DNA of 46,973 bases, from NCBI RefSeq assembly GCF_028868675.1, contig NZ_JAGWUA010000015.1:1-46973 (forward strand). Direction: 5' to 3'. The position numbers and the translations under genes were made by a program. A model generated the notes under the pieces. The model ran no database searches. It saw only the letters and a program-made list of their open reading frames with translations, and was not told where the DNA came from. This document shows positions 7,094-46,973 of the stretch, one piece after another. This stretch comes from Bradyrhizobium sp. Its GTDB lineage: Bacteria > Pseudomonadota > Alphaproteobacteria > Rhizobiales > Xanthobacteraceae. Numbering within the stretch: the first letter of the stretch is position 1; each line of letters starts with the position of its first letter.

Positions 7094-9886
<2,793 letters not shown>

Positions 9887-9890
9887 CCAG

Positions 9891-9943
9891 GCGAATGGCG
9901 AGCAGCGAATGGAATCGCTCGCCATTCGCCACTCGCTGCTCGC
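9891..9943. repeat. CGAATGGCGA-type hairpin repeat (family D)
   Basis: GCGAATGGCGAGC (9891-9903) pairs perfectly with GCTCGCCATTCGC (9917-9929). GCGAGCAGCGAATGG (9898-9912) pairs with CCACTCGCTGCTCGC (9929-9943) with one mismatch, giving two competing hairpins. It lies between convergent ppc and the SDR gene, where it may act as a transcription barrier. A relative built of the same words is at 25463-25535. Confidence 0.75.
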
Positions 9944-9945
9944 GC

Positions 9946-29881: not shown

Positions 29882-30775
29882 ATGCAGGCGAAGATCGTCA
29901 CCGCAGGCGTCCTCGATGTCGCCTATCGCGAATATGGCCCTGCGGACGGCTGGCCCTGCATCATGGGCCACGGCTTTCCCTACGACGTCCACGCCTATGC
30001 CGAAGTGGCACTCGTGCTCGCGCAGTCCGGCGCGCGCGTGCTGGTGCCGTGGCTGCGCGGCTATGGGCCGACGCGCTTCCGCTCCGCCAGGACGCCGCGC
30101 TCCGGCGAACAGGCGGCGCTCGGGGCCGACCTGCTCGCCTTCATGGACGCGCTCGGAATCGGTCGCGCGGTGCTCGGCGGCTACGACTGGGGCGGGCGTG
30201 CCGCCTGCATCGTCGCGGCGCTGCATCCCGAGCGTGCCACAGGTCTCGTCTCCGGCAATTCCTACAACATCCAGGACATCGCCCGCGCGATGGAGCCGGC
30301 CTCGCCGCCGGAGGAGGCCGCGCTCTGGTACCAGTACCTGTTCCACAACGAGCGCGGCCGCCGCGCCCTTGAACGCAACCCGCGCGGCTTCGCTCGCCAG
30401 CTCTGGTCGATGTGGTCGCCGAAATGGGCGTTCGACGACGCGACCTTCGCGCGCAGCGCGGAAGCCTTCGACAATCCGGACTTCGTCGACGTCGTGATCC
30501 ATTCCTACCGGCATCGCTACGGCCTGGTCGCCGGCGATCCCGCCTGTGCCGCGATCGAGCAGCGGCTCGCCGCGCAGCCGCAGATACGCGTCCCGACCAT
30601 TGCGATCGACGGGGATTCCGACGGCGTCAATCCCGGCACCGCCCACCACGCCCGCAAGTTCGAGGGCCATTTCGAGCGGCGCGTATTCCGCGATGCCGGC
30701 CACAATCTGCCGCAGGAGCGCCCCGCCGAATGGGCGCAGGCCGTGCTGGACGTGCGGAAGGCGGCGCTCGGCTAG
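29882..30775 (+). CDS. Epoxide hydrolase-like alpha/beta hydrolase
   Basis: Alpha/beta-hydrolase of 297 residues. The oxyanion motif HGFPYD is at about 30-35. The nucleophile elbow GGYDWGGR at 99-106 has Asp102, not Ser, which marks the epoxide hydrolase/haloalkane dehalogenase group that works through an ester intermediate. The acid is likely an Asp in [10 protein letters not shown] near 245, and the base is His in DAGHNLPQE near 280. Start ATG 29882 sits directly after the HD gene. There is no export signal. It would open an epoxide or dehalogenate a small substrate in the cytosol. The physiological substrate is not evident from the context. Confidence 0.85.
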
Positions 30776-30821
30776 CGGCGGGGCCGCGGCGAGCCTGCCG
30801 GCCTGATTTTTCGCCACCCCG

Positions 30822-30846
30822 GGAACCTTTTGCGATCGGCGCCGTC
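30822..30846 (+). promoter_or_regulatory. Candidate EcfG (general stress) promoter upstream of folE
   Basis: GGAAC at 30822-30826 is followed after 16 bases by CGTC at 30843-30846. That resembles the alphaproteobacterial EcfG consensus GGAAC-N16/17-CGTT with one mismatch in the -10. It lies 48 bases before folE and would drive the folE/Rieske reductase run, and possibly the HdeD-like and LapA-like genes. Alternative: chance match. Confidence 0.4.
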
Positions 30847-30894
30847 CAATCTCTGCCACGCGATATCCCGTCGCCTGGTTCGAGGGAGACGTCA

Positions 30895-31521
30895 ATGAGC
30901 CGACAGGTGCGCGCGCTGGAGCGCGTCGCGATCGCCGAACAACCCGCCGCGAGGCCGAGCCGCATGGAAGTCGCGGAAGCCGTGCGAACCATGATCCGCT
31001 GGGCGGGCGACGATCCCGCGCGCGACGGTCTGCGCGAGACGCCGGACCGCGTGGCGCGGGCCTTCCAGGAATATTTCGCCGGCTACGCGCAGGACCCGGC
31101 CGAAATCCTGCAAAAGACCTTCGAGGAGATCGAAGGCTATGACGAGATGATCGTGCTGCGCGGCGTGCGCTTCGAGAGCCATTGCGAGCACCACATGGCG
31201 CCGATCGTCGGGCGCGCCTGGGTCGCCTACATCCCGCAAGGGCGCGTGGTCGGCATCAGCAAGCTCGCGCGCGTCGTCGACATCTATGCCAAGCGCCTGC
31301 AGATCCAGGAGAAGATGACGGCGCAGATCGCCAACACGATCAACGAGGTGCTGAAGCCCGAAGGCGTCGGCGTCATCATCAAGGCGACGCATCATTGCAT
31401 GACGACGCGCGGTGCGCACAAGCCGGGCACCGACCTCGTGACCAGCCGCATGCTGGGCGTGTTTCGCGACAACGCCCTGACGCGCCAGGAATTGCTGGGT
31501 CTTGCCAATTCGGACGATTGA
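30895..31521 (+). CDS. folE: GTP cyclohydrolase I (FolE)
   Basis: Converts GTP to 7,8-dihydroneopterin triphosphate, first step of tetrahydrofolate (and related pteridine) synthesis. It is a cytosolic toroidal decamer with active-site zinc. Full length at 208 residues. Zinc ligands Cys97 and His100 are in [11 protein letters not shown], and Cys168 is in [11 protein letters not shown]. The active-site loop [22 protein letters not shown] follows the first site. Start ATG at 30895, with CGAGGGAGA upstream as ribosome site. The Rieske reductase gene starts 30 bases downstream. Placement behind a stress-like promoter suggests a second or stress-regulated copy, which cannot be checked here. Confidence 0.96.
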
Positions 31522-31551
31522 TCCGCGGTTCTCCGCGACGGAGGCGACGCC

Positions 31552-33075
31552 ATGACCGATGAGAAGAAGCAGCCGAGCGGGCCGGACCTGACGCAAGGCG
31601 TATCGCTTGCCGATTTCAAGGACGGCAAGCTGCTCGGCCACGTCGGGGATGACGACGTGCTGCTGGTCAAGCTCGGCACGGAGGTCATGGCGATCGAGCC
31701 TTTTTGCAGCCACTACCACGGTCCGCTGGCTGAAGGGCTGGTGGTGGACGACACCATCCGTTGCCCCTGGCATCACGCCTGCTTCTCGCTGCGCACGGGC
31801 GAAGCCCTGGTTGCACCGGCGCTGACTGCGCTGGCGGTATGGGAGGTGGTTCGCGAGCGGGACAGGATCATCGTGCGCGGCAAGCGCGAGCCTGCGAAGC
31901 CCGCACTGCGGCGGATCGCGACGGACCCGGACAGGATCGTCATCGTCGGTGGCGGCGCGGCCGGCTTTGCCGCGGCCGATATGCTTCGGCGCGAAGGATT
32001 TTCCGGCGCCGTCACCATGCTGAGCGACGACAGCGCCGCGCCGGTCGACCGGCCGAACCTGTCCAAGGACTATCTGGCCGGCAATGCGCCGGAAGAGTGG
32101 GTGCCGCTGCGGCCCGAGGCGTATTACGGGGACGCCGGCATCGATCTCAGGCTCAACACCAAGGTTGCCGCGATCGATCCTCGCAGCCGCAGCGTCACTC
32201 TCGGCAATGCCGATGTCCTGCCGTTCGATCGCCTGCTGCTCGCAACCGGCGCCGAACCGGTCCGGCTGCAGATTCCAGGTGCCGACCAGCCGCACGTCCA
32301 CACGCTGCGCTCGCTTGCCGACAGCCGCGCCATCATCGCCGCGGCCGGTAGCGCCAAGCGCGCGCTGGTGATCGGGGCAAGCTTCATCGGTCTGGAAGTC
32401 GCGGCTTCGCTGCGGGCGCGCAAGCTCGAGGTCCACGTCGTCGCGCCCGAAGCGCGGCCGATGGAGAGGGTCCTCGGCCGCGACATCGGGGACTTCGTCC
32501 GCGCGCTTCACGAAGAGAACGGTGTGAATTTTCATCTCGAGGATACCGTGGAGAGGTTCGACGGCAAGCGCGCCATGCTGAAGGGCGGCGGCGCCATCGA
32601 GGCCGACCTCGTCGTGGTCGGCATCGGCGTCAGGCCGCGCACGGGACTCGCCGAGCAGGCGGGGCTGGCGACCGATCGCGGCGTCCTCGTCAACGCCTTC
32701 CTCGAGACCAGCGCGCCCGGCGTGTACGCCGCCGGCGACATTGCACGCTGGCCGGATCGGCATTCGGCGGCCAACATCCGTGTCGAGCATTGGGTGGTCG
32801 CCGAACGGCAGGGCCAGACCGTGGCGCGCAACATGCTCGGCCGGCGCGAGCCTTATACGGCCGTGCCGTTCTTCTGGAGCCAGCACTACGACGTGCCGAT
32901 CAACTATGTCGGCCACGCCGAGGGATGGGACGAGATCAGGCTCGACGGCAGCGTTGCCGGCAAGGATTGCCTGCTGCAGTACCGGCGCGGCGGCCGCGTG
33001 CTTGCGGTCGCCTCGATCTATCGCGACCTCGACAGTCTCGAGGCCGAACTGTCGATGGAGCGCGAACGCGCGTAG
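31552..33075 (+). CDS. Rieske-domain FAD/NAD(P)-dependent ferredoxin-type reductase
   Basis: Fusion of an N-terminal Rieske [2Fe-2S] domain and a class II pyridine-nucleotide-disulfide-oxidoreductase-like reductase, 507 residues. Iron-sulfur ligands are Cys52 and His54 (FCSHYHG) and Cys71 and His74 (CPWHHA). The FAD Rossmann motif IVIVGGGAAGFAAADML starts near 129. The NAD(P) motif RALVIGASFIGLEVAASL is near 265, and the second FAD motif GVYAAGDIARWP is near 390. The architecture is that of AIFM3/Nfrl-like proteins and rubredoxin- or ferredoxin-type reductases. Electron partner not seen nearby. It lies between folE and the HdeD-like gene in the same direction. Confidence 0.88.
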   Translation: MTDEKKQPSGPDLTQGVSLADFKDGKLLGHVGDDDVLLVKLGTEVMAIEPFCSHYHGPLAEGLVVDDTIRCPWHHACFSLRTGEALVAPALTALAVWEVVRERDRIIVRGKREPAKPALRRIATDPDRIVIVGGGAAGFAAADMLRREGFSGAVTMLSDDSAAPVDRPNLSKDYLAGNAPEEWVPLRPEAYYGDAGIDLRLNTKVAAIDPRSRSVTLGNADVLPFDRLLLATGAEPVRLQIPGADQPHVHTLRSLADSRAIIAAAGSAKRALVIGASFIGLEVAASLRARKLEVHVVAPEARPMERVLGRDIGDFVRALHEENGVNFHLEDTVERFDGKRAMLKGGGAIEADLVVVGIGVRPRTGLAEQAGLATDRGVLVNAFLETSAPGVYAAGDIARWPDRHSAANIRVEHWVVAERQGQTVARNMLGRREPYTAVPFFWSQHYDVPINYVGHAEGWDEIRLDGSVAGKDCLLQYRRGGRVLAVASIYRDLDSLEAELSMERERA

Positions 33076-33185
33076 CCTCGACCGTCGGCCCCAACTTCTG
33101 CCTTGCGCGTCGCCCGGCAGGGATTTCTGACGGCGTCCGTCCGTGCTATCCTGACGCGTGCCCCGCATCAGTTGGGAGTGCCGTC

Positions 33186-33761
33186 ATGACGAGTGCTTCG
33201 GATACGTCACAAAATTCCGGTTTGGGATCGGGCAGCGCGGCGCTGCATGCGAAATGGGGATGGATCGTCGCCCTTGGCGTCGTCTACCTCATCGCCGGCT
33301 TCGTCGCGCTCGGCAGCGTCGTGCTGGCGACGGTGGCGAGCGTGCTCGTGGTCGGCGCGATGATGATCGTCGCCGGCGTCGCCGAGGTGTTCGGCGCTTT
33401 TCAGATGAAGAGCTGGGGCAAGTTCCTGATCTGGGCCTTGCTCGGCGTGCTCTACGTCGTCGCGGGCTTCCTGACGTTCGAAAATCCGCTGTTCGCGGCG
33501 GTGTTGCTGACCCTGTTCCTGGGCGCCTCGCTGCTCGTATCCGGCGTCGTGCGGCTGTTCCTGGCCTTCAGCATGAAGCGCGAAAGCCCCTGGGTCTGGG
33601 TGGCGCTGTCGGGCGTCATCACGCTGCTGCTCGGCCTGTTGATCCTGGCACGCTGGCCCGTCAACAGCGTCTATATCCTTGGCATCTTCCTCGGCATCGA
33701 TCTGGTCATGGCCGGCGGCGGCTGGGTCGGGCTGGGCTTGAGCCTGCGTCGCCGCCGGTAA
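33186..33761 (+). CDS. HdeD-family (DUF308) membrane protein
   Basis: Integral membrane protein of 191 residues with about six hydrophobic helices (about 24-46, 49-70, 79-97, 103-125, 138-154, 163-183), and a basic C-terminus ending RRRR. The pattern of paired helices with short polar turns and GVxxxxxGxxxL repeats matches HdeD, linked in E. coli to acid-stress survival. Start ATG at 33186 with TTGGGAG upstream. It follows the Rieske reductase by 110 bases. Function in envelope stress tolerance is inferred from family and from the candidate stress promoter further upstream. Confidence 0.82.
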   Translation: MTSASDTSQNSGLGSGSAALHAKWGWIVALGVVYLIAGFVALGSVVLATVASVLVVGAMMIVAGVAEVFGAFQMKSWGKFLIWALLGVLYVVAGFLTFENPLFAAVLLTLFLGASLLVSGVVRLFLAFSMKRESPWVWVALSGVITLLLGLLILARWPVNSVYILGIFLGIDLVMAGGGWVGLGLSLRRRR

Positions 33762-33825
33762 GCGGGCTGGCACAGGGCTGATCACGCAGGTGCCGGACAA
33801 TGGTGCCCGGCCGCAGGAGTTCGTC

Positions 33826-34050
33826 ATGCGCTGGGTCTATCTTGCCGTCATCGTGCTGTTTGCCGCAGCGGTCGTCGTCTTCGCCGTGCAGAATTTCGAG
33901 ACCGTCACGATCACGTTCTTCAGGCTCGACATCAGTGCGCCGCTCGCGCTGCTGACCATCGTCGTCTACCTGCTCGGTGCCGCCACCGGCGGCAGCCTGT
34001 TTGCGCTGCTGCGGCGATCCTATGAAGGTTCGCGCCGGTTCATCCAATGA
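33826..34050 (+). CDS. LapA-like (DUF1049) small inner-membrane protein
   Basis: Small protein of 74 residues with two membrane helices (about 2-22 and 37-59). Between them is the motif FAVQNFETVTITFFRLDISAPLAL, with the conserved xQN-xxxVxxxF of LapA/YciS-type proteins, which in E. coli help assemble LPS. The C-terminus is basic and cytosolic. Start ATG at 33826 with GCAGGAG as ribosome site. A longer frame from 33790 lacks one. Immediately after the HdeD-like gene and in the same direction. Confidence 0.82.
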   Translation: MRWVYLAVIVLFAAAVVVFAVQNFETVTITFFRLDISAPLALLTIVVYLLGAATGGSLFALLRRSYEGSRRFIQ

Positions 34051-34184
34051 CCGACCGGGTGCCCCAATCTGTGGCTCAGCCGCTCGACGCAAGACCGGAA
34101 AACTGGAGTCGGTTGGTGTGAGTGCTTGACCGTCTCTTCGTATCGCGCCGACGCGCGCCGTCATGGCGGCGCACAGGAGGATCC

Positions 34185-35402
34185 ATGGATTTCAGGCATT
34201 CCGACCGTTCGCTGGAGTTGCAGGATCGCGTCCGCCAGTTCATGCGGCAGCATGTCGAGCCGGTCGAGGAGCTCTATTACGAGCAGGTCAGGCCGGAAGC
34301 CGCGCGCTGCAAGACTCCGCAAGTGTTGCAGGACCTCAAGCGCCTGGCGCGCGAGCAGGGCCTCTGGAACCTGTTCCTGGCCGGCGAGCATGGCCCGGGG
34401 CTGAGCAATCTCGACTATGCGCCGGTCAAGGAGATCATGGGCCGGGTGCTGTGGGCGCCGGAGGTCTTCAACTGCTCGGCGCCCGACGTCGGCAACATGG
34501 AGGTGCTGGCCCAGTACGGTACGCCGGCGCAGCAGGAACGCTGGCTGCGGCCGCTGCTGGAGGGGCGCATCCGTTCGGGTTTCTCGATGACCGAGCCCGC
34601 GGTCGCCTCCAGCGATGCCACCAACATCCAGTGCGAGATCAGGCGCGACGGCGACGGCTACGTCATCAACGGGCGCAAATGGTTCACCTCGGGCGCCATG
34701 AATGAGGATTGCGAGATACTGATCGTGATGGGCAAGACCGCGCCCGATCATCCCGACCGCCATCGCCAGCAGTCGATGATCCTGGTGCCGAAGGCGACGC
34801 CGGGCGTGCGGATCGTGCGCGACATGCTCACTTACGGCTATGACGACGCGCCGGCCGGCCATCCCGAGATCGTCTACGACAACGTCCGGGTGCCCGCGGA
34901 GAACATCCTGCTCGGCGAGGGCCGCGGCTTCGAGATCGCGCAGGGGCGGCTCGGGCCGGGTCGCATCCATCACTGCATGCGGCTGATCGGCTGCGCCCAG
35001 CGGGCATTGGAGCTGATGTGCCAGCGGGCGGTGTCGCGGGTTGCCTTCGGCAAGCCGCTCGCCGAGCAGGGCTCGGTCAAGGAGGACATCGCCCACTCCT
35101 TCTGCGAGATCGCCCAGGCGCGACTGCTGACGCTGCAGGCGGCCGACAAGATGGACCGCGAGGGCAACAAGGCGGCGCGCGATTTGATCGCAGCGGCCAA
35201 GATCGTCGTGCCCAGCATGGCGGCTCGCGTGATCGACCGCGCGATCCAGCTCCATGGCGCCGCCGGCGTGTCGCAGGACACGTTCCTGGCGCGCGCCTAC
35301 GTCTATGCCCGCTTCATCCGCATCGGCGACGGGCCCGACCAGGTGCATCTGGCCGCGGTCGGCAAGGAGTTGATCAAACGCGGCGGGATCGCTACCGCGT
35401 GA
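34185..35402 (+). CDS. Acyl-CoA dehydrogenase (ACAD10/11-like)
   Basis: FAD-dependent acyl-CoA dehydrogenase of 405 residues, introducing a C2-C3 double bond in an acyl-CoA. Features in order are the N-terminal helical domain, [17 protein letters not shown] near 135 (FAD/CoA loop), [11 protein letters not shown] near 160, [26 protein letters not shown] near 265, and a C-terminal [33 protein letters not shown]. The DGPDQVH tail and the [15 protein letters not shown] stretch are typical of the ACAD10/11-like branch. The ATG at 34185, after ACAGGAGG, is chosen over one at 34122. Ends seven bases from the convergent chemoreceptor gene. Chain-length preference unknown. Confidence 0.9.
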
Positions 35403-35409
35403 GGCCGGT

Positions 35410-37149
35410 CTAGCCGGCCTTGGCCGCGCGGCCGTCCGTCGCGCCCGAGCGCAGGTTCTGGAAGAACTTCTCCACCTCGCGCGACAGCGTCTCCGCGGTC
35501 GCGGTGAGGCTGCTGGCGGCCGTCAGCACGGAGGAGGCCGCCGTGTCGGTCTCCCCGATCGCGTCCCGCAGCGAGGCGATGTTGGAGACCAGCGTCTCGT
35601 TGCCCTGCGCCGCCGATTGGGCGTTGGAGGAGATTTCGCGGGTCGCGGCGTCCTGCTGGCTGATGGCGGTGGCGATGTTGGTGGTGACGTCGTTGATCTC
35701 GCGCACCGCGCCGCCGATGTCGCGCACGGCATCCACCGCGTTGCGGGTCGAGGTCTGGATCTGGCTGATGTTCTCGCCGATCTCGGCGGTCGCTTTGGCG
35801 GTCTGGCCGGCCAGGGCCTTGACCTCATGGGCAACGACCGCGAAGCCGCGGCCGGCGTCGCCGGCGCGCGCTGCCTCGATCGTGGCGTTGAGTGCCAGCA
35901 GGTTGGTCTGTGCGGCGATGGCCTGGATGAGGTTGAGCACGCCGTCGATGCGCTGGGTCGCAGCCGCCAGGCTCTCGATTTCCGAAATCGACTTTTCGGT
36001 GCGCTGCCCGGTCTGCTCGACCGCGCCGGCCGATTGCCGGACCTGGCGGCCGATCTCCTCGACGGAGGCCGACAGCTCCTCGGCGGCGCTCGCCACCGCC
36101 GAGACGTTGTGGGAGGCCTGTTCGGTGGCGCTGGCCGCCGTGCCGGCGCGGTTGTTGGCGTCCGAGGTGACCCGGCTGATGGTCTGCGCGGTTTCGCGCA
36201 TGACGGCGGCATTGTCGGTGAGACCGCGCATGACCGCGCCGATCGCGTCGCGGAACTGCTCGACCGCCACTTCGATGTGGCGAGTGCGTTGCTCGCGCGA
36301 GGAAGAGTCCTGCGACACCTGGGAGGCGAGGTTGCGGTTGCGGTCCATCGCGTCCTTGAAGATCTGGATCGCGCGCGCCAGCGCACCGATCTCGTCGGCG
36401 CGCTCCGCATGGGGTACCTCGACGTTCTCGGCGCCGTCGGCGACCTGCTTGATGGTGGCAGTAATGACGGAGAGCGGGCGGGCAATCGAGCGGGCGATGA
36501 TGACGATGCCGATCGCGACCAGCGCCAGCGCCAAGCCACCGAGGCAGGTGAGGACGAAGGACAATTGGCGGTTGGTCTCGGTCTGCTGCGCGATCTGACG
36601 CGCGCGCTCGGCATAGACCTTCGACAGCGCCTCGAGATCCTTGTTCAGGGCCGAGCGCACGCTGCGGTTGGCGTCATTGTCGCCCCATTCGCGGCCTGCG
36701 GCCGGGCTGACCTCGTTGGCGCGGCGGACCAGCTCCTTGCGGAATTCGACGAACTGCTCGATGCGCTTCTTGAAGGTCGAGAACTGCTCGGCGTCGTCGG
36801 CCTTGACGATGGTCTCCCAGCGCTTCACGACCTCGAGGATCTGCCCGTTGAACTTGAGCAACCCTTCGCCGTATTTCTTCACCACCGCCGGGTCGGTCGA
36901 CATGTAGACGCCGCGGGACTCCATCACGACCGCGTAGACCAGCGAATTGACGCGCTCGACGTTCAGCGCCGCCGCATTGGCGGTTGCGATCGCGCTCGTC
37001 AACTCGGCGCCCCTGCGGCTGTTGTAATCCGACAGCATCGCGATGGCCGCGGTCAGCAGCGCGAACAGCGCGAAGATCGAATAGAGCCTCGTTGCGAGGG
37101 TGAAACGGCCTGCCAGGCCAGCGGCATTCCCAGAACGACGTGTTGTCAT
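35410..37149 (-). CDS. Methyl-accepting chemotaxis protein
   Basis: Inner-membrane chemoreceptor of 579 residues. One helix at about 20-40, a periplasmic sensor of about 155 residues (predicted helical bundle), a second helix at about 197-219, a HAMP domain around 219-272, and a cytosolic MA domain. The conserved hairpin tip [19 protein letters not shown], then [14 protein letters not shown], is at about 411-442 and contacts CheA/CheW. Methylation-type Glu/Gln stretches flank it. No CheR-tethering pentapeptide at the C-terminus (ends GRAAKAG). The ligand is unknown. Convergent with the acyl-CoA dehydrogenase, divergent from eutB. Confidence 0.94.
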
Positions 37150-37447
37150 GGCTGTCAGGGGTCCAAGTCGCCTCGGCGGAGGCCGCAGGCGCGATCGAAT
37201 AGAATTAATGCAAAATCATGCAGGATGAAGATGGACACGCCGTTAACGCCAGAAGGCTCCGCGGCTGCGCGTTCATATAAAAATATGACGTAATATCAAT
37301 AACTTAAATTCAATCACAAGATTCGGAGATCGATGTCCATGTTCGGACAGTCTGCGAAGGTGGGCCCGCGTCACGACTGCCAAGGGCGCATGATGCCGGG
37401 TTAGATTGCGGCCTCCGCCGCTATCCGACCCATCCGGAGGGCAGTTC
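37150..37447. other. AT-rich divergent promoter region between chemoreceptor gene and eutB
   Basis: This 298-bp gap carries an AT-rich island (about 37270-37325), unlike the surrounding GC-rich DNA. It includes the dyad CATATAAAAATATG at 37274-37287. It is a likely promoter zone for the chemoreceptor gene or for eutB. CGGAGGG at 37435-37441 is the ribosome site for the eutB TTG start. No gene is seen within it. Confidence 0.55.
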
Positions 37448-38830
37448 TTGGCCTACCGCCATACGATCGACGCCACGACCCACACATTCGCCGATTTGCG
37501 GGATTTGCTCGCCAAGGCGAGCCCGCCGCGCGCGGGCGACCGACTTGCCGGCATCGCAGCCGACAGCGCCGAGCAGATGATCGCGGCGCGGATGGCGCTC
37601 GCCGACGTGCCGCTCGCGCGGTTCTTGCAGGAGGCCGTGATCCCCTACGAGGCCGACGAGGTGACGCGGCTCGTCATCGACGGCCATGACGCGCGCGCCT
37701 TCGCGCCGGTCGCCGCCATGACCGTCGGCGGCTTCCGCGACTGGCTGCTCTCGGATGCCGCCACGCAGGAGGCATTGCGACGGCTCGCGCGCGGCATCAC
37801 GCCGGAGATGGCCGCCGCGGTGTCCAAGCTGATGCGCAACCAGGACCTGATCCTGGCGGCGCGCAAATGCGAGGTGGTCACCGCCTTCCGCAACACCATC
37901 GGCCTGAAGGGGCGGATGAGCACGCGCCTGCAGCCCAACCATCCCTTCGACGACGCTCGCGGCATCACCGCCTCGATCCTCGACGGCATCTTGCTCGGCG
38001 CGGGCGACGCTTGCATCGGCATCAATCCGGCGAGCGACGATCCCGCCACGATCGCGCAGCTGCTGCGGCTGCTGGACGAGATCATCGCGAAGCTGAAGAT
38101 GCCGACCCAGGGCTGCGTGCTCACTCACGTGACCACGACGCTGTCGCTGATCGGGCAGGGGGTTCCGGTCGATCTGGTGTTCCAGTCGGTTGCCGGCACG
38201 GAAGCCGCCAACCGCAGCTTCGGCGTCGATCTCGCGCTGCTTCGGGAGGCCCGGCAGGCGGGTCTGTCGCTCGGACGCGGCACCGTCGGGCGGAACGTGA
38301 TGTATTTCGAGACCGGGCAGGGCTCGGCGCTGTCGGCCAACGCCCATCACGGCGTCGACCAGCAGACTTGCGAGGCACGTGCCTATGCGGTCGCCCGCGT
38401 CTTCGATCCCTTGCTGGTCAACAGCGTGGTCGGATTCATCGGCCCGGAATATCTCTATGACGGCAAGGAGATCATTCGCGCCGGCCTCGAGGACCATTTT
38501 TGCGGCAAGCTGCTCGGCCTGCCGCTCGGGGTCGACATCTGCTACACCAACCACGCCGAGGCGGACCAGGACGACATGGACAACCTGCTGACCCTGCTGG
38601 CGGCGGCAGGCGTCACCTTCATCATGGGGGTTCCGGGCGCCGACGATGTCATGCTGAACTACCAGTCGACCTCGTTCCACGACGCGCTCTATGTCCGCGA
38701 CGTCTTCGGGCTGCGGCGGGCGCCGGAGTTCGACGATTGGCTGGCGCAGACCGGCATTGCCTGCAGCGATTTCCGCCTGGCTCGCGACGCCGGGCTGCTG
38801 CCGGATTTCGCCTCGCGGCTGATCGCGTGA
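37448..38830 (+). CDS. eutB: Ethanolamine ammonia-lyase large subunit
   Basis: Adenosylcobalamin-dependent enzyme subunit that converts ethanolamine to acetaldehyde and ammonia, partnering with EutC. It has 460 residues and is co-linear with E. coli EutB: PTQGCVLTHVTTTLSLI, FETGQGSALSANAHHGVDQ with substrate-site Glu288 (E287 in E. coli), VVGFIGPEYLYDGKEIIRAGLEDHF, and CYTNHAEADQDD near 375. The start is TTG at 37448, following CGGAGGG. An upstream in-frame start at 37406 would place extra residues before the family N-terminus. The adjacent gene is not eutC but the hopanoid methylase hpnP, with eutC behind it. No carboxysome-like eut shell genes are present. Confidence 0.92.
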   Translation: MAYRHTIDATTHTFADLRDLLAKASPPRAGDRLAGIAADSAEQMIAARMALADVPLARFLQEAVIPYEADEVTRLVIDGHDARAFAPVAAMTVGGFRDWLLSDAATQEALRRLARGITPEMAAAVSKLMRNQDLILAARKCEVVTAFRNTIGLKGRMSTRLQPNHPFDDARGITASILDGILLGAGDACIGINPASDDPATIAQLLRLLDEIIAKLKMPTQGCVLTHVTTTLSLIGQGVPVDLVFQSVAGTEAANRSFGVDLALLREARQAGLSLGRGTVGRNVMYFETGQGSALSANAHHGVDQQTCEARAYAVARVFDPLLVNSVVGFIGPEYLYDGKEIIRAGLEDHFCGKLLGLPLGVDICYTNHAEADQDDMDNLLTLLAAAGVTFIMGVPGADDVMLNYQSTSFHDALYVRDVFGLRRAPEFDDWLAQTGIACSDFRLARDAGLLPDFASRLIA

Positions 38831-38997
38831 TCCGGAACAAAAGCGCGCGAAAGTCCACGGCTTGGGCCTGAACCGCGGAAACCATCGGCACCTCTCGGGG
38901 ATTGAGGCCGTGTCACAATATTGAGGAATTTCGGGCCCAGCGTTACACTGTGTCTGTTCCTGCGGCCCCTGCGGGCTCGTCGCGTGAGGAAAGTTCG

Positions 38998-40584
38998 ATG
39001 CGAGTTCAGAGCAACGGAACGATCCGGCACATTCTCTGTGTCTTCCCGCGTTACACCTCCTCCTTCGGCACCTTCGAACACGCCTATCCGCTGACCGCGG
39101 GCGTCAAGGCGTTCATGCCGCCGCAGGGCCTGCTCCTGATCGCGGCCTACCTGCCGAAGGATTGGCCGGTCCGTTTCGTCGACGAGAACATCCGTCCTGC
39201 CTCGAAAGAGGACTTCGAGTGGGCCGAGGCGGTGTTCGTCAGCGGCATGCACATCCAGCGCCAGCAGATGAACGACATTTGCCGCCGCGCGCACGAGTTC
39301 GACCTTCCGGTCGCCCTCGGTGGTCCTTCGGTCAGCGCCTGCCCGGACTATTATCCCGCCTTCGACTATCTCCATGTCGGCGAGCTCGGCGACGCCACCA
39401 ACCAGTTGATCGAGACCCTGTCGCGCGACGTCTCGCGTCCGCCGCGGCAGGTCGTGCTGACGACCGGCGACCGTGTGCCGATGACGGAGTTTCCGATTCC
39501 CGCCTACGAGCTCGTCGAGATCAAGAAATATCTCCTCGGCAGCGTCCAGTATTCCAGCGGCTGTCCCTATCAATGCGAGTTCTGCGACATCCCCGGCCTC
39601 TACGGCCGCAACCCGCGCATCAAGACGCCGCAGCAGATCATCGCCGAGCTCGACCGCCAGCGCGAATGCGGCATGACCGACACGATCTACTTCGTCGACG
39701 ACAATTTCATCGGCAACCGCAAGGCGGCGATGGACCTGTTGCCGCATCTGGTCGAATGGCAGAAGCGGACCGGCTATGTGGTGAGGCTCGCCTGCGAGGC
39801 GACGCTCAACATCGCCAAGCGCCCGGAAATCCTGGAGAAGATGCGCGAAGCCTTCTTCGTCACCGTCTTCTGCGGCATCGAGACGCCCGACCCGGACGCG
39901 CTGCACGCGATGCACAAGGACCACAACATGATGGTCCCGATCCTGGAGGGCGTACGCACCATCAATTCCTACGGCATTGAAGTGGTGTCCGGCATCATCA
40001 TGGGGCTCGACACCGACGGCCCGAACACCGCGGAAGCGCTGATCGATTTCGCCGAGGAGTCGCGCATCCCGCTGCTGACGATCAACCTGCTCCAGGCATT
40101 GCCGAAGACGCCGTTGTGGGACCGGCTGGAGCGCGAGGGGCGGCTCGTCCATGACGAGAGCCGCGATTCCAACGTCGAATTCCTGCTGCCCTACGAGGAT
40201 GTCGTTGCCTCGTGGAAGCGCTGCATGGAGATCGCCTACGCGCCGGCGAAGGTCTTCGCGCGCTGCGAATATCAGTGCACCCACACCTATCGCAACCGCG
40301 TCAAGGTGCCGGTGCCCGAGGAGATGAAGACCTGGGCTCACGCCAAGCGCGCCCTGATCATGCTGCGCAACATCTTCTGGAAGGTCGGCGTGCTCGGCGA
40401 CTACAAGCGTGTGTTCTGGAAGTTCGCGCTGGGCCGGATCAGGCAGGGAGACCTCGAGGGGCTGATCGGCTGCACCATGATCGCACACCATCTGATCACG
40501 TTCACCCGCGCGGCGTCCCGCGGCCATCAGAACGCGTCGAACTACTCGATCCGGCTGCGCGAGGCGTCCGTTCCTGCCGAGTAA
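38998..40584 (+). CDS. hpnP: Hopanoid C-2 methylase (B12-binding radical SAM)
   Basis: Radical-SAM, cobalamin-type methyltransferase, 528 residues, predicted to add the 2-methyl group to hopanoids. The N-terminal cobalamin-binding-like Rossmann domain (about 1-170) includes [21 protein letters not shown] and [19 protein letters not shown]. The [4Fe-4S] motif CPYQCEFC has Cys189, Cys193 and Cys196. The barrel follows with [17 protein letters not shown] and [14 protein letters not shown]. Length and pattern match HpnP of Rhodopseudomonas and Bradyrhizobium. HpnR-type C-3 methylase is the alternative, less likely given the surrounding hpn genes. Start ATG 38998, GTGAGGA upstream. It lies between eutB (167-bp gap) and eutC (7-bp gap). 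Confidence 0.88.
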
Positions 40585-40591
40585 CCGTGCC

Positions 40592-41377
40592 ATGTCCGGC
40601 CCGCCAGCCCCGGCCCGCCCGACCCTGGACCTGCGGGCGCTGACGCCCGCGCGCGTGGCGCTGGGCCGCTGCGGCGCCAGCCTGCCGACCGGATCGTTGC
40701 TGAATTTCACGCTGGACCATGCCCGCGCCCGCGATGCCGTCCATGCGGCGTTCGAGGCGGAGCGGATCGTGGACGATCTCGCCGCGTTCGGGCTTCCCGT
40801 CTCCGCGGCGAGGAGCCGCGCCGTCGATCGCCGGGACTATTTGCGCCGGCCGGATCTCGGCCGGCAACTCGATGCCGCCTCCGCGGCTTGTCTTTCGGTA
40901 GGGACGGCGAGGTCCTGCGAGCTTGCAATCGTGATCGGCGATGGATTGTCGCCGACCGCGGTGCATCGGCACGCGGCGCCGCTGCTGAAGCGCCTGCTGC
41001 CGCTGTTGTCGGGCGCGGAGGCCGTCGCGATTGGCCACATCATTGTCGCGTCAGGCGCGCGCGTCGCGCTGGGCGACGAGGTCGGCGCCATTCTCGGGGC
41101 CCGCATGCTGCTGATGCTGATCGGCGAGCGGCCCGGCCTGTCGGCCCCCGACAGCCTCGGCGCCTACCTGACCTTCGCGCCGAGGCCCGGACGCACCGAC
41201 GCCGAACGTAACTGCGTCTCCAATATCCACGGCGCCGGGCTGAGCCATGACGAGGCCGCGGTCAAGATCGCCTGGCTGATCCGCGAGGGGCTGGCGCGGC
41301 AGGTCACCGGCGTGGCGTTGAAGGACGACAGCGGCGAGCGGGCGCCGCGTCGAATCGGTACCCACCCACCCGAATGA
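40592..41377 (+). CDS. eutC: Ethanolamine ammonia-lyase small subunit
   Basis: Small subunit of the adenosylcobalamin-dependent ethanolamine ammonia-lyase, 261 residues. Recognisable segments are [31 protein letters not shown] at the N-terminus, [17 protein letters not shown] near 74, [22 protein letters not shown] near 111, [21 protein letters not shown] ([29 protein letters not shown]) near 165, and [22 protein letters not shown] near 205. The Cys and Gly-Asp residues contact B12 in the enterobacterial enzyme. It starts seven bases after hpnP stops, so it is almost certainly translationally coupled to hpnP rather than to eutB. A 213-bp gap separates it from the HpnN-like gene. Confidence 0.93.
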
Positions 41378-41590
41378 CTCTTCCGGCATCAAGAGCCTGG
41401 ATCGCGGCATCTTGACTGTTTCGGCGCGCTGCCGCCTGCTTGCGAGGGGAGGGGCGGACCTGCTAAACCCGTGCGGCGTTTTCCCGCGTGTTTTCAAAGG
41501 GCAAGCCTCCCATCTCCAGGGCGTTTTCAGGCCCATCAGCGGTGCGCGATAAGCTCGACAGGCGAGTCGATTTCAGGAACTGGACAAGGC

Positions 41591-43957
41591 ATGCTCGAAA
41601 AGCACAGCGAGAGTGAGGTTCATGTCGACAAGGTCGAGCAGGGACCGGCTTCCTCCATCGCTTTCGGGCTGGAGCGCCTCGGGCTGATCGCCGTCAAGGC
41701 GCCGGTCGTCTCCTGCCTCGTGCTGATCGCGCTGATCGTCGTCGCCATCTTCGGCATCGAACGCATCAAGATCGACGATTCGCTGTCGCAGCTGTTCCGC
41801 TCCAACACCAAGGAATTCCGCCAGTACGAGGAAGTCACCAAGCGCTTCCCGGCGACCGAGTTCGACGTGCTGGTGGTGGTCGAGGGCAAGACGCTGCTCG
41901 CGCGCGACAATCTCGAGAAGCTGCGCGACTTCGTCACCGACATCCAGCTCGTCGACGGCACCCGCGGCCTGGTGTCGCTGTTCTCGGCGCGGCAGGCGCC
42001 GGCGCCGGGCCGGCTGCCGGCGGCGCTGTTCCCACAGGAGCTGCCGACGGGCGCCGCCTACGACAAGTTCATCGCGACCGTCAAGAGCAACGAGATCATC
42101 CGCGGCAAGTTGTTGTCGGAGGACGGCACGCTGGCGCTGATCGTGCTGTCGCTCGATCCCAAGGTCGTCGCGAGCAACGATCTCGGCAAGACCATCGGCG
42201 ACATCCGCAAGCTGATGAAGGACGATCTCGGCGACACCGGGCTCAACGTGCAGCTTTCGGGCGTGCCGGTGATGCAGCTCGAGATCCGCAACGCGGTCGA
42301 ACGCGACGGGCTCACCTACAACATCCTCGGCATTCTCGCCGGCTGCATCATCGCCATCATCTTCTTCCGCAAGATCTCCTTCATGGTGGCGGCGGCGTTC
42401 CCGCCCATGATCGCGATCCTGCTGGCGCTCGGCGGGCTCGGCTGGGCCAATTTCAATCTCAACATGTTCCTGAACGTGATGACGCCGCTCATCATGGTGA
42501 TCAGCTTCTCCGACTCGATGCAGCTCACCTTCGCAGCGCGCGACCGGCTGATCGCGGGGCAGGACAAGTATACCGCGTTCAGGAACGCCGTGCTGGTGGT
42601 TGGGCCGGCCTGCGTGCTGACGCACGGCACCGCCGGCATTTCCTTCATCGCGCTGCAGTTCTCCGATTCCGACCTGATCCGCAAGTTCGGCGAGGCGGGG
42701 CTGGCCGCGACCATGATCGCGCTCGTCGCGGTGCTGTCGCTGGTGCCGGTGTTCGGCGTGCTGTTCGTACGCAACGAGAGGGTCTTCGCGGTCAAGTTCC
42801 AGAGCGCGGACGCCGGCGTGCAGGCGCTGCGCAACTTCTGCTACTGGATCGCGGTGCGCATGGTCGGCCGGCCCGGCCTGTTCAGCCTGATCGCGGTGCT
42901 GTTCGTCGGCAGCCTCGGCGTCGTCTACGCCAATCTCCAGCCGCGCTACCGGCTCGCCGACCAGGTGCCGGACAAGCGCCAGGCCGTCGCGGCCTCCAGC
43001 CGGCTCGATGCGAAGCTCACCGGCGCCAATCCGATCGACGTGCTGATCGAATTCCCCAAGGGCGAATCGCTCTATTCGAAGAGCACGCTCGACACCATTG
43101 CCGAGGTGCATTCGATCGTGGAGAAGGCGGCCGGCGTCGGCAACGTCTGGTCGCTGGAGACCTTGCGGCGCTGGCTCGCCGAAAAGGCCGGCTCGACCGA
43201 CGTTGCGACGCTGAAGGAATATGTCGACGTGCTCCCCGAGCACTTGGTGCGCCGCTTCATCGACAAGGAGCAGGACGCGGTCGTGGTGTCGGGCCGCGTG
43301 CCGGACCTCGACTCCAGCCAGATCCTGCCCATGGTCGAGAAGCTCGACCACGAACTCGACGCCGTGCGCAAGGCGCACCCCGGCTACGAGATCGCGGTCA
43401 CCGGCCTGTCGGCGATCGCCGCGCGCAACTCGGCAAACATGATCGAGAAGCTCAACCGCGGCCTCACCGTGGAATTCGCGCTGGTCGCGATCTTCATCGG
43501 GCTCGCTTTCCGCTCCTGGGTCGTGATGTTCGCCTGCATTCTGCCCGGCATCTTCCCGGTGGTGCTGGCGGGCACCGTACTGTGGGCGCTCGGGGAGGGG
43601 TTGCAATTCGCAAGCGTGGTGGCGCTCACGGTCTCCTTCGGCCTGGGGCTGAGCGCGACCATCCACTTCCTCAACCGCCTGCGGCTGGAGGGCAAGCCCG
43701 GTGTCTCTTCGGCGCTCGCCGTGGAACGGGCCACCGTCCTGGTCGGGCCGGCGCTGATCCTGACCACGGTGGTGCTCGCCTGCGGCCTCGTCGTGACCGT
43801 GTTCTCCGACCTGCCGTCACTACGCCTGTTCGGCTGGCTCGGGGCCTTCTCGATGGTCGCGGCGCTCGTCGCCGATCTCTTCATCCTGCGCCCGACGGCG
43901 ATGTGGCTGATCAACCTGCATGAGCGGCTTCAGGGCAGCGACAAGCGCGCGATCTGA
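41591..43957 (+). CDS. hpnN: HpnN-like RND/MMPL family hopanoid transporter
   Basis: Large inner-membrane protein of 788 residues of the MMPL/RND type. One helix near the N-terminus (about 30-48), then a large periplasmic domain, a cluster of about five helices (about 240-400) with sterol-sensing-like character, a second helix and periplasmic domain, and a final cluster (about 625-775). The segment SFSDSMQLTFAARDRLI carries the acidic residues of the proton relay. HpnN-type proteins are required to place hopanoids in the outer membrane of Rhodopseudomonas. This is the neighbour of hpnP, hpnC and hpnD. It is slightly shorter than some HpnN. A second, paralogous hpnN may exist elsewhere. Start ATG 41591. 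Confidence 0.82.
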   Translation: MLEKHSESEVHVDKVEQGPASSIAFGLERLGLIAVKAPVVSCLVLIALIVVAIFGIERIKIDDSLSQLFRSNTKEFRQYEEVTKRFPATEFDVLVVVEGKTLLARDNLEKLRDFVTDIQLVDGTRGLVSLFSARQAPAPGRLPAALFPQELPTGAAYDKFIATVKSNEIIRGKLLSEDGTLALIVLSLDPKVVASNDLGKTIGDIRKLMKDDLGDTGLNVQLSGVPVMQLEIRNAVERDGLTYNILGILAGCIIAIIFFRKISFMVAAAFPPMIAILLALGGLGWANFNLNMFLNVMTPLIMVISFSDSMQLTFAARDRLIAGQDKYTAFRNAVLVVGPACVLTHGTAGISFIALQFSDSDLIRKFGEAGLAATMIALVAVLSLVPVFGVLFVRNERVFAVKFQSADAGVQALRNFCYWIAVRMVGRPGLFSLIAVLFVGSLGVVYANLQPRYRLADQVPDKRQAVAASSRLDAKLTGANPIDVLIEFPKGESLYSKSTLDTIAEVHSIVEKAAGVGNVWSLETLRRWLAEKAGSTDVATLKEYVDVLPEHLVRRFIDKEQDAVVVSGRVPDLDSSQILPMVEKLDHELDAVRKAHPGYEIAVTGLSAIAARNSANMIEKLNRGLTVEFALVAIFIGLAFRSWVVMFACILPGIFPVVLAGTVLWALGEGLQFASVVALTVSFGLGLSATIHFLNRLRLEGKPGVSSALAVERATVLVGPALILTTVVLACGLVVTVFSDLPSLRLFGWLGAFSMVAALVADLFILRPTAMWLINLHERLQGSDKRAI

Positions 43958-43999
43958 GCGATCCGGGGCGAGCCGCGCCTCCGATCGCGGACGAGAAAA

Positions 44000-44025
44000 A
44001 ACCCTGGTTCGGAACAACCAGGGTT
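44000..44025. terminator. Bidirectional intrinsic terminator
   Basis: AACCCTGGTT (44000-44009) pairs perfectly with AACCAGGGTT (44016-44025) around CGGAAC. On the minus strand the stem is followed by six T (44001-43996 side), a strong signal for the secreted-protein gene. On the plus strand CTTT follows for the hpnN-like gene. Confidence 0.85.
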
Positions 44026-44056
44026 CTTTGCAGTCTGGTCGGAAGGGGAAAGCGCG

Positions 44057-44551
44057 TCAGCTCTTCACCATCGTGATGTTGACGCCGCGGATCTCGCCCT
44101 TGGAGATGATGTTCACCGTCTGCTTGCTGCCGTTGGTGCGCAGCGTCAGGTTGGCGGCGAAGCCCGCAGCCTCGACGAACACGTCGATCTGGCCGCCGCC
44201 CGCTGTGCCCTGCAGCTCGCCGAACACGTTGCGGCTGGCTTCGCTCCACCTGCCGGAAATCCGGTCGCCCTGGCTCGTCACGTCGCTGGAGAGATCGAAC
44301 TTGTAGCTGTCGCTGGCGCAGTGCAGGTTCTGCTTCAGGCTGAGGCCGCCGCCGCCGACCTTGTAGTCCGCCTTGCAGCGGATGCGCTCGGTCGAGCCGT
44401 CGGACAGCGATACCGTGCCGGTGCCCGACCACGCGCCGTCGAAGCCGGCAAAGGGCCCGGACTGAGCATGGCTCGCCGACACCGAGAACAGCAGTGCCGC
44501 GCCGATGCCGGCTGCCTTGATCGCCTGTCCAGATCGCCCAAAGAACTTCAT
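44057..44551 (-). CDS. Conserved hypothetical secreted protein
   Basis: Protein of 164 residues with a clear Sec signal peptide: basic MKFFGRSGQAIK, hydrophobic AAGIGAALLFSVSAS, and cleavage likely after SHA. The mature part is rich in beta-prone, polar residues (GAWSGTGTVSLSDGSTERIRC, LSLKQNLHCASDSYKF, GRWSEASRNVFGELQG) and has two Cys that could form a disulfide. It probably forms a small periplasmic beta-sandwich or lipocalin-like fold. Located opposite the hpnN-like gene. A role in envelope lipid homeostasis is only suggested by position. No known motif. Confidence 0.75.
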   Translation of the reverse strand: MKFFGRSGQAIKAAGIGAALLFSVSASHAQSGPFAGFDGAWSGTGTVSLSDGSTERIRCKADYKVGGGGLSLKQNLHCASDSYKFDLSSDVTSQGDRISGRWSEASRNVFGELQGTAGGGQIDVFVEAAGFAANLTLRTNGSKQTVNIISKGEIRGVNITMVKS

Positions 44552-44920
44552 GTCAGAATATCCCGCTTTGGAATGACGTTCCCATCAGTCAAGAACGCCT
44601 CGCCGCATCGAAAGTTTAGTGTCCCCCGTGCCGCACCAGGTTCAATGATTAAGAGCGAGCGATGCATCACTGCAACAGGTAAATGGCAAAACGCGGGGTT
44701 CCCGGATAATCTTGTAGTATCAACCTGTTACATCTGGCAAATGGAGGGTGCGAAAGGTACGATTTGCCGGGCTCGGGGCCAATTTGGCCGCATTTTCCGG
44801 CGCTTCTGCTCTTCTCGTTGCTGCGCGTGTCGCGGCACACCTCATCAGAACATTCCGTTCCGGCCGTCCGCCTGTGCTGTCGGGCAGCGGAGGATTCTGG
44901 CGTCAGAATGAAGGACCATC
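44552..44920. other. 369-bp divergent intergenic region
   Basis: No gene is convincing here. It lies between two divergently transcribed genes for secreted proteins, so it should hold both promoters. An AACAGGT...ACCTGTT inverted repeat (about 44672 and 44730) is separated by about 50 bases, and GTAAATGGCA and CTGGCAAATGG recur nearby. An AT-richer stretch lies near 44700-44730. Ribosome site GAAGGACC precedes 44921. Confidence 0.5.
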
Positions 44921-45157
44921 ATGCGTAAGCTTCTCCTCGCTCTCACCGTGCTGTCGGCGTCGCTCTCGACGGCGGCGTTTGCCCAGCAACAGCGCAGCGG
45001 CACCCCCGAAGAGCAGAAGGCCTGCACCCGCGACGTGCAGAAGTTCTGCCGGCCCGTCATCGACCAGGGCGATTTCACCATTCTGGCGTGCCTGAAGGAG
45101 AACCGGTCGAAGATCTCGCCGGCGTGCGACCAGGTCCTGAAGACCCACAATCAATAA
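44921..45157 (+). CDS. Small secreted cysteine-rich protein
   Basis: Small exported protein of 78 residues. The signal peptide is MRKLLLALTVLSASLSTAAFA with cleavage before QQQRSG. The mature part of about 57 residues has four regularly placed Cys in ACTRDVQKFC, LACLKEN and SPACDQVL, resembling one cysteine-rich repeat unit (as in GLG1-type repeats). Two disulfides are likely. Start ATG 44921 with GAAGGACC. It lies just before hpnC in the same direction, with a gap of about 180 bases. Function unknown. Confidence 0.8.
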   Translation: MRKLLLALTVLSASLSTAAFAQQQRSGTPEEQKACTRDVQKFCRPVIDQGDFTILACLKENRSKISPACDQVLKTHNQ

Positions 45158-45336
45158 GCCTTGCGCGCCGGCGCCCGGCGGCTCCGCCGTCCGTCGCGCG
45201 GCCCGCAGGGGATGTCAGAGACAGGATTGGTTTTGCGGCCGTCTTCCCCTATATGGGGGCCGCGACGGCCTTGCCCGGCGTGACCCCGTGCAAGCGGAAG
45301 ACCTTTCCCGTTCAGACGATTGTTGACCCGTCCTCG

Positions 45337-46221
45337 ATGGCCTCTGCGAGCGAATTGCGATCCGGCAAGACCGACCGTGACGAGAATTTTCCCGTCGCGT
45401 CGTGGATCATTCATCCGCGTCATCGGGCGCTGATCCTGGCGTTCTACGATTTCGTCCGGACCGCCGACGACATCGCCGACCACGCCACGCTCGGCCCCGC
45501 GGAGAAGCTCGCCTTTCTCGACCTGCTCGAGCGCGAGCTGCTCGGAGGCGGCGACACCCAGGCCGAGGCCGTCAACCTGCGGCGCGCGCTCGGCGAGCGC
45601 GGCATGGCGCCGCGCCATGCGCTCGACGTGCTGGTGGCGTTCCGGATGGACGTGACCAAGCTGCGCTACGAGACCTGGGACGAGGTCATCCATTATTGCC
45701 GCTATTCGGCGATGCCGGTCGGCCGCTTCATGCTCGACGTCCACGGCGAGAGCACCGCGACCTGGGCCGCCTCCGACGCGCTCTGCGCGGGCCTGCAGAT
45801 CAACAATCACCTGCAGGACTGCGGCAAGGATTTTCGTGCGCTCAACCGCGTCTATCTGCCGCGCGACGCGCTTGCCGCGAGCGGTGCTTCGGTCGAGCAG
45901 CTCGGGCTCGACCAGTCGCCGCCCGCGATGCTGCAATGCCTGCAGGCCCTCGCCGCACGCAACGAGCAGCTGCTCGGGGAGAGCAAGTCGCTCAGCGCCG
46001 AGGTGAGGGATCTTCGCCTCGGCCTCGATATCGCGGTGATCCAGGCCTATGCCGACCGCATCGTGCGCCTGCTCAAGGTGCGCGATCCCCTGCGCGAGCG
46101 GGTGCATCTGAACAAGCTCGAACTCGCCACCTTCAGCCTCGCCGGCATGCTCGGCGAAATCGGCCGCCGTGCCATCGGGCGCAAGGCGATCTCCAATCCG
46201 GGGCCGGCGCATGACGCTTGA
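45337..46221 (+). CDS. hpnC: Hydroxysqualene synthase (squalene-synthase-like HpnC)
   Basis: Enzyme of the three-step squalene route. HpnD makes presqualene diphosphate and HpnC converts it to hydroxysqualene, which HpnE then dehydroxylates. It has 294 residues. The first aspartate motif TADDIADH (Asp44, Asp45, Asp48) and the second, LQDCGKDF (Asp161, Asp165), are where the trans-IPPS fold holds Mg and diphosphate. Start ATG at 45337 (MASASELRSG); an in-frame ATG at 45253 is possible. The hpnD start overlaps its end by 11 bases, so the pair is translationally coupled. hpnE is expected beyond the window end. Confidence 0.92.
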   Translation: MASASELRSGKTDRDENFPVASWIIHPRHRALILAFYDFVRTADDIADHATLGPAEKLAFLDLLERELLGGGDTQAEAVNLRRALGERGMAPRHALDVLVAFRMDVTKLRYETWDEVIHYCRYSAMPVGRFMLDVHGESTATWAASDALCAGLQINNHLQDCGKDFRALNRVYLPRDALAASGASVEQLGLDQSPPAMLQCLQALAARNEQLLGESKSLSAEVRDLRLGLDIAVIQAYADRIVRLLKVRDPLRERVHLNKLELATFSLAGMLGEIGRRAIGRKAISNPGPAHDA

Positions 46222-46973
46222 GGCGACGCCGCCCAGCGCCGCATACGGCACCAGCGCATCCGGCAGCTCCTTCTACGCCGCGATGCGCATCCTGCCGCGC
46301 GCCCAGCGCGAGGCGATGTTCCAGATCTACAGCTTCTGCCGTCAGGTCGACGACATCGCCGATTCCAACGGGCCGCGCGACGAGCGCCTTGCGGCGCTCC
46401 AGCAGTGGCGCGACGACATCGACGCGCTCTATCGGGGCCGTCCGCCGGCCCGGCTCGCCGACTACGTCGCCTCGGTGAAGAGCTTCGGCCTCAAGCGCGA
46501 GGATTTCCTCGCCATCATCGACGGCATGGAGATGGACGTGCCGCAGGACATCCGCGCCCCCGACATGGCGACGCTCGATCTCTACTGCGATCGCGTCGCC
46601 AGCGCCGTCGGGCGGCTGTCGGTGCGGGTGTTCGGCATGCCCGAAGACGACGGCATCCAGCTCGCGCATCATCTCGGCCGGGCGCTGCAGCTCACCAACA
46701 TCCTGCGCGACATCGACGAGGACGCGACGCTCGGGCGGCTCTATCTGCCGCGCGAGGCCCTGCTGCATGCCGGAATCACCGGCAGCGATCCGATGCGCGT
46801 GACCGCCGAGCGCGCGCTGCCAAAAGTCTGCCTGCCGCTCGCGCAGCGGGCGAAGGCGCATTTCGACAAGGCGAACGAGATCATGGACCGCAACAGGCGC
46901 CGCGCCGTGCGTGCGCCGCGGATCATGTCGAGATACTACCACGCGATCCTCGACCTCCTGCTCGAGCGAGGCT
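46211..46973 (+). CDS. hpnD: Presqualene diphosphate synthase (HpnD), 3' part outside window
   Basis: Condenses two farnesyl diphosphates to presqualene diphosphate, feeding HpnC. 254 residues are present before the window end, and the full family length is about 280. The first Asp-rich motif is VDDIADSNG (Asp47, Asp48, Asp51), and the second is LRDIDEDATLGRLYLP (Asp167, Asp171). SFYAAMRILPRAQREAMF near the N-terminus is characteristic. The ATG at 46211 overlaps hpnC by 11 bases. The frame is open to the last base. Confidence 0.93.
   Translation, partial: MTLEATPPSAAYGTSASGSSFYAAMRILPRAQREAMFQIYSFCRQVDDIADSNGPRDERLAALQQWRDDIDALYRGRPPARLADYVASVKSFGLKREDFLAIIDGMEMDVPQDIRAPDMATLDLYCDRVASAVGRLSVRVFGMPEDDGIQLAHHLGRALQLTNILRDIDEDATLGRLYLPREALLHAGITGSDPMRVTAERALPKVCLPLAQRAKAHFDKANEIMDRNRRRAVRAPRIMSRYYHAILDLLLERG

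Follow-up and report, generated by a model that had tools for sequence, protein, structure and literature searches.

Genes at the locus and their identities

In a 46,973-nucleotide stretch of Bradyrhizobium sp. DNA (contig NZ_JAGWUA010000015.1 of assembly GCF_028868675.1; hereafter the window), hpnP, a gene for a putative hopanoid C-2 methylase, lies between eutB and eutC, which encode the large and small subunits of ethanolamine ammonia-lyase (EAL). The gaps are 167 bases between eutB and hpnP and 7 bases between hpnP and eutC. Coordinates and model matches confirm what an earlier reading of the sequence alone (the sequence-only reading) had described, namely that the three genes share one strand, with the hpnP stop 7 bases before eutC. 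The usual adjacency of eutB and eutC, a matter of gene order and not a property of the enzyme, is thus lost here, with hpnP in between.

Both EAL subunits give full-length matches to curated models above cut-off, EutB with 699.3 bits against NF011649 (cut-off 554) and 707.9 bits against PF06751, and EutC with 303.7 bits against NF003971 (cut-off 230). In a hand-numbered alignment to 3abo_A, EutB is conserved at the positions of E. coli R160, Q162, N193, E287 and D362, which are active-site residues. The third protein comprises a B12-binding domain (30.5 bits, just under the cut-off of 32.1), a radical SAM domain, with the cluster motif CxxxCxxC present as GCPYQCEFC, and DUF4070, and we assign it as HpnP, the hopanoid C-2 methylase. 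No NCBIfam model above its own cut-off gave this name, and the assignment, which we regard as provisional, rests on the domain make-up and on the nearby hpnC. PMC10697835 gives the same three-domain make-up for both HpnP and HpnP-like proteins. Among the matches listed, many genomes of the genus also encode another protein, with 36-42% identity to HpnP.

Features of the locus, with window coordinates
Feature	Coordinates	Strand	Basis and remarks
Methyl-accepting chemotaxis protein (MCP) gene	35410-37149	divergent from eutB	adjoins eutB
eutB, EAL large subunit	37448..38830	+	TTG start, GGAG just 5'; model matches and residue alignment
eutB-hpnP gap, 167 bp	38831..38997	+	putative hpnP-eutC promoter region
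Conserved non-coding block	38912..38944	+	one match in own genome; probably belongs to hpnP
hpnP, hopanoid C-2 methylase (B12-binding radical SAM, DUF4070)	38998..40584	+	ATG start; domain matches
eutC, EAL small subunit	40592..41377	+	ATG start; curated model; 7 bases past hpnP
MMPL/RND transporter gene, conserved neighbour 3' of eutC	41471..43957	+	domain matches; far under HpnN cut-off
hpnC, squalene synthase HpnC	45088..46221	+	model match; true start codon may be further in

The reading frame of hpnC starts about 4.5 kb 3' of hpnP, and a small gene without a family match lies on the opposite strand between the MMPL/RND transporter gene and hpnC. The MMPL/RND protein was considered as a candidate HpnN and rejected, its 62.5 bits falling far short of the 751.85 required. 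According to PMC12583986, hpnP and hpnR usually lie apart from the other genes for hopanoids across the genomes analysed there.

Conservation and history of the eutB-hpnP-eutC order

To describe the spread of this arrangement we refer to loci, genomes and genera by our own labels (L, G and g, respectively). Scanning named genomes gave 311 loci, of which the best 80 were taken; 79 of these are titled Bradyrhizobium and one Frankia, and eutB-hpnP-eutC stands on one strand in all 80. Within the genus, 98 genomes were sampled; 97 gave an hpnP match and every one an EutB match. In 96 of the 97 hpnP-bearing genomes, fewer than 400 bases separate the end of eutB from an hpnP downstream on the same strand, which places the gene order beyond chance. 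The exceptions in this sample are G064, in which hpnP is present and the EutB genes are elsewhere in the genome, and G040, which has no hpnP match and whose eutB match begins at a contig end. Across the family sample (296 genomes, including the genus) hpnP was found in 143 genomes (E ≤1e-120) and EutB in 171 (E ≤1e-60), and in the order-wide sample hpnP was found in 31/397. Twenty loci of other genera (g6, g17, g20, g25, g26, g28 and g46) were chosen for hpnP lying near eutB, and in all of them eutC follows hpnP.

The order is therefore kept across the genus and recurs in seven other genera; it is not unique to this strain, which the sequence-only reading had named as an outcome that would speak against it. 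The genome that holds the window is a draft of 375 contigs with one EutB match, a state of assembly that might favour an assembly error or a strain-private rearrangement, but an order common to every named locus and to nearly all hpnP-bearing genomes of the genus has already refuted this explanation, and we give it virtually no chance. The record titled Frankia sp. RB7 (L097) contains a Bradyrhizobium-like locus with 84% HpnP identity and the same order, and is probably mislabelled or contaminated. In the literature on hpnP or hopanoids together with EAL we found no description of the eutB-hpnP-eutC order, which may stand in the main hpnP papers.

The tight coupling of hpnP and eutC, also claimed by the sequence-only reading, holds well beyond the window. 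The two genes are at most 20 bases apart or overlap in 110 of 120 loci, the commonest values being a spacing of 6 (57/120) and of -4, that is, a 4-base overlap (28/120). Such tight spacing with 4-base overlaps suggests translational coupling.

Sixteen loci were chosen for an EutB unlinked to hpnP, and 15 of these (L219-L231, L233, L234) carry adjacent eutBC without hpnP; the remaining one (L232) has the split arrangement, truncated within hpnP where its contig ends. The adjacent pairs match the window in subunits, gene order and shared strand, but here hpnP and its putative promoter region lie in between, and the split EutB and EutC form separate clades. No neighbours common to adjacent eutBC were seen among L219, L222 and L224. 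A further 14 loci have hpnP but neither eutB nor eutC beside it and are hereafter called eut-less: L200-L211 (g20, g25, g28, g40, g45) and, in the genus of the window, L213 and L244. EutB is present elsewhere in eight of the 14 genomes (G121, G160, G291, G170, G206, G235, G375, G064), and in the three fetched (L227, L230, L231) it belongs to an adjacent eutBC pair. Apart from end-cut stretches and L212, none of these loci has lost just one eut gene. In L212 (G283, 9342-10723) eutB is frameshifted and separated from hpnP by other open reading frames, one of which looks by eye like an outer-membrane protein, so that this is either a split locus in decay or one with a sequencing error in eutB. 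A single-contig genome has a eutB match in two overlapping pieces beside an intact hpnP (G077:C1:2404712-2406089).

Nine further hpnP loci showed no eut gene within the stretch retrieved, five in the family (L214-L218) and four in other families (L235-L238). Those outside the group (L235-L238; L216-L218 of g10, g12 and g13; perhaps L214-L215 of g43) encode a homologous methylase, 56-65% identical, and differ from the window in having neither eutB nor eutC in the fetched stretches.

These distributions bear on the idea that EAL and HpnP form a functional module, kept together through cobalamin supply or because ethanolamine derived from phosphatidylethanolamine is tied to hopanoid methylation; the sequence-only reading had offered both B12-shared regulation and a link between membrane ethanolamine and hopanoids. 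EAL uses cobalamin, the order is near-invariable in the genus sample, and the trio persists where its flanks differ, being kept without the RND and chemoreceptor neighbours in g25 (L198, L199) and g17 (L194); in L195 the stretch ends too early to judge these neighbours. HpnP, too, uses cobalamin according to PMC10697835. However, no Rfam match at the gathering threshold, such as a cobalamin riboswitch, was found in window positions 30000-46973 or in 10 related loci, and hpnP stands apart from eut genes both in the 14 eut-less loci, with EutB elsewhere in eight of the genomes, and in the nine further ones, four of them from other families. In the window's own genome no ethanolamine permease (TIGR00908) reached the cut-off, but none did in the 14 control genomes either. 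Since no riboswitch was found and hpnP and EAL part repeatedly, the B12 and ethanolamine readings gain no support, and a functional module appears very unlikely.

As for the flanks themselves, the MCP gene next to eutB is divergent in most of the Bradyrhizobium loci fetched and co-directional in L186. The MMPL/RND transporter gene after eutC is kept in most split loci and also in 11 of the 14 eut-less loci.

Trees were built from the window, nine of the 80 named loci, taken at every ninth place, and those of the loci L180-L258 with long enough matches, giving 64, 63 and 72 rows; the HpnP tree is a quick tree, all were midpoint-rooted, and the broken eutB of L212 fell under the length limit and was left out. 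Split EutB sequences fall in one clade (99/97), the sole other row of which is L232, and split EutC sequences form one clade (99/95). Since split EutB and split EutC are each confined to one clade and unlinked eutBC genes are adjacent in 15/15 cases, hpnP probably entered an adjacent eutB-eutC pair once. Eut-less rows are nested among split rows at about six places in the quick HpnP tree, and its well-supported branches force at least seven label changes, some towards outgroups. The simplest history would begin with a single insertion of hpnP between eutB and eutC; descent would then have been mostly vertical, apart from some exchange, and both eut genes would have been lost on several later occasions.

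Such a history is compatible with a frozen accident, in which the insertion was neutral, the promoter arrangement has no effect on EAL, and the order was kept since a clean removal of hpnP is improbable. The single origin, the repeated absence of eut genes and the failure to find a shared regulator fit this explanation, but the tight hpnP-eutC spacing, with its hint of translational coupling, does not. We consider a frozen accident a real contender, if somewhat short of an even chance.

The region between eutB and hpnP

The eutB-hpnP gap measures 85 to 333 bases in the 120 loci, with a median of 154. In the window, the + strand of this gap showed no terminator-like site, and no sigma-70 consensus promoter was found in 37150-41600. 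A lead to the control of hpnP comes from R. palustris TIE-1, in which the general stress sigma factor EcfG raises hpnP expression, a result that PMC4676935 credits to Kulkarni 2013; GGAAC-N16-CGTT is given as the EcfG1 motif of Rhizobium etli in PMC3892343. We searched for GGAAC, N16 or N17, and CGTT with at most one mismatch, and took expected counts from single-base shuffles. Within 230 bases before hpnP, 21 of the 22 split loci from other genera have the motif (1.2 expected), as do 13/14 eut-less loci (1.0 expected), compared to 14 of the 99 Bradyrhizobium loci (4.3 expected). When only the gap is counted, the figure for loci outside the genus is 19/21, against 0.9 expected, and GGAAC is perfect in every one of the 19. 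A stricter form of the pattern was found upstream of eutB in none of 119 loci. The counts therefore indicate that the motif goes with hpnP outside the genus and is seemingly weakened or replaced in Bradyrhizobium, a pattern that suggests a change of hpnP regulation within this genus. Set beside R. palustris TIE-1, for which EcfG control of hpnP is reported, most of the non-Bradyrhizobium relatives tested have a methylase of the same family preceded by an EcfG-like motif; Bradyrhizobium loci, including the window, mostly lack a good one. The window's own genome has 13 matches to the sigma-factor family, none of them assigned as EcfG.

The gap also contains a conserved block, some 30 bases long, G[CT]CACAATNTTGA..AATT...CCCAGC.TT, located at 38912-38944 in the window. 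A loosely defined core of the block is present in 89 of the 99 Bradyrhizobium loci and in 10 of the 22 other split loci, against 0.0 in shuffled sequence, and in 0/14 eut-less and 0/4 outgroup loci; with a longer, 29-base pattern, five of the 14 eut-less loci reach a score of at least 23. No further copies were found within 3 mismatches in the window's own genome, no known motif was recognised in the block, and no conserved block was seen upstream of eutB. That the block might be an N-terminal extension of hpnP was rejected: it is in frame in the window, yet all three frames are represented (29, 26 and 12) over 67 loci, these being the 67 of 144 found with a threshold that missed many Bradyrhizobium variants. 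RNAalifold gave no structure on 86 distinct block rows, and this fold test says nothing either way because column-shuffled controls likewise gave none. We take the block to be a putative regulatory site of hpnP.

Both elements argue against a single three-gene operon read solely from a promoter upstream of eutB. The shared strand, the short gaps, the lack of a terminator-like site and, in Bradyrhizobium, the lack of a good EcfG motif before hpnP are what such an operon would predict. It does not predict, however, that outside the genus the motif lies in the gap, that it also precedes hpnP in nearly all eut-less loci, or that the conserved block stands in the gap and, in its longer form, before hpnP at five eut-less sites, with no such block upstream of eutB. 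We consider exclusive reading from a promoter upstream of eutB improbable.

A proposed hybrid unit with its own hpnP promoter

The explanation that we favour, and hold with fair confidence, is that hpnP was inserted once into eutBC and that the result is a hybrid unit in which an hpnP promoter carries eutC along. The insertion would have taken place once, in an ancestral lineage leading to Bradyrhizobium and the genera close to it, where eutB and eutC still formed an ordinary adjacent pair. The resulting unit would consist of eutB, a gap with the hpnP promoter region, and then hpnP-eutC as a tight pair, with hpnP, and so probably eutC, transcribed from a promoter of their own. Judged by its motif, this promoter would be of the EcfG general-stress type in the genera outside Bradyrhizobium, and read-through from eutB probably adds to hpnP transcription. 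Where the split-type EAL was lost or replaced, both eut genes would have gone and hpnP stayed.

Several observations weigh against parts of this account. At the 14 eut-less sites no convincing remnants of eutB or eutC were found, the best E value being 0.007. In three loci of the window's genus (L239-L241) HpnP groups with g26 and EutB with the genus, so inheritance was not purely vertical; the discord hints that hpnP was exchanged within the unit. The genus g43, which has no eut genes, joins the split g17 with a support of 87 in the quick HpnP tree, and may therefore be a further case of eut loss, without the EcfG motif. With midpoint roots, the direction of the event is something we infer. 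As regards the promoter, the shuffle-based expectations ignore kinship among loci, and the EcfG motif within one mismatch is absent from the four outgroup loci (L214-L217). Inside the gap, 13 of the 99 Bradyrhizobium loci have it, against 2.8 expected, and GGAAC is perfect in none of the 13; the window's best match before hpnP has 2 mismatches, and for L198 and L199 (g25) the best one falls within the coding end of eutB and not in the gap. Separate promoters, which the sequence-only reading had named as evidence against a functional unit of the three genes, are thus supported by sequence in the relatives, where the gap motif is so frequent, and only weakly in Bradyrhizobium, including the window.

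The hybrid unit could be taken a step further. A stress-responsive hpnP promoter may have captured EutC, and with it the amount of active EAL, with EutB keeping its own control, and the conserved block may be the site of a dedicated hpnP regulator that replaced EcfG in Bradyrhizobium. We offer this extension tentatively and think it rather unlikely in full.

If eutC is expressed from the hpnP promoter, one EAL subunit would come under the general stress response outside Bradyrhizobium. An unrelated gene fixed between two subunit genes of one enzyme across a large group of soil bacteria offers a clear test case for an enzyme of which one subunit may have come under a foreign promoter. The split order also provides a marker, based on gene order, for this group's hpnP lineage, useful because 2-methylhopanes are read as molecular fossils. 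Finally, the block before hpnP is a lead to the control of 2-methylhopanoids in Bradyrhizobium, where the EcfG motif seems to have been weakened or lost.

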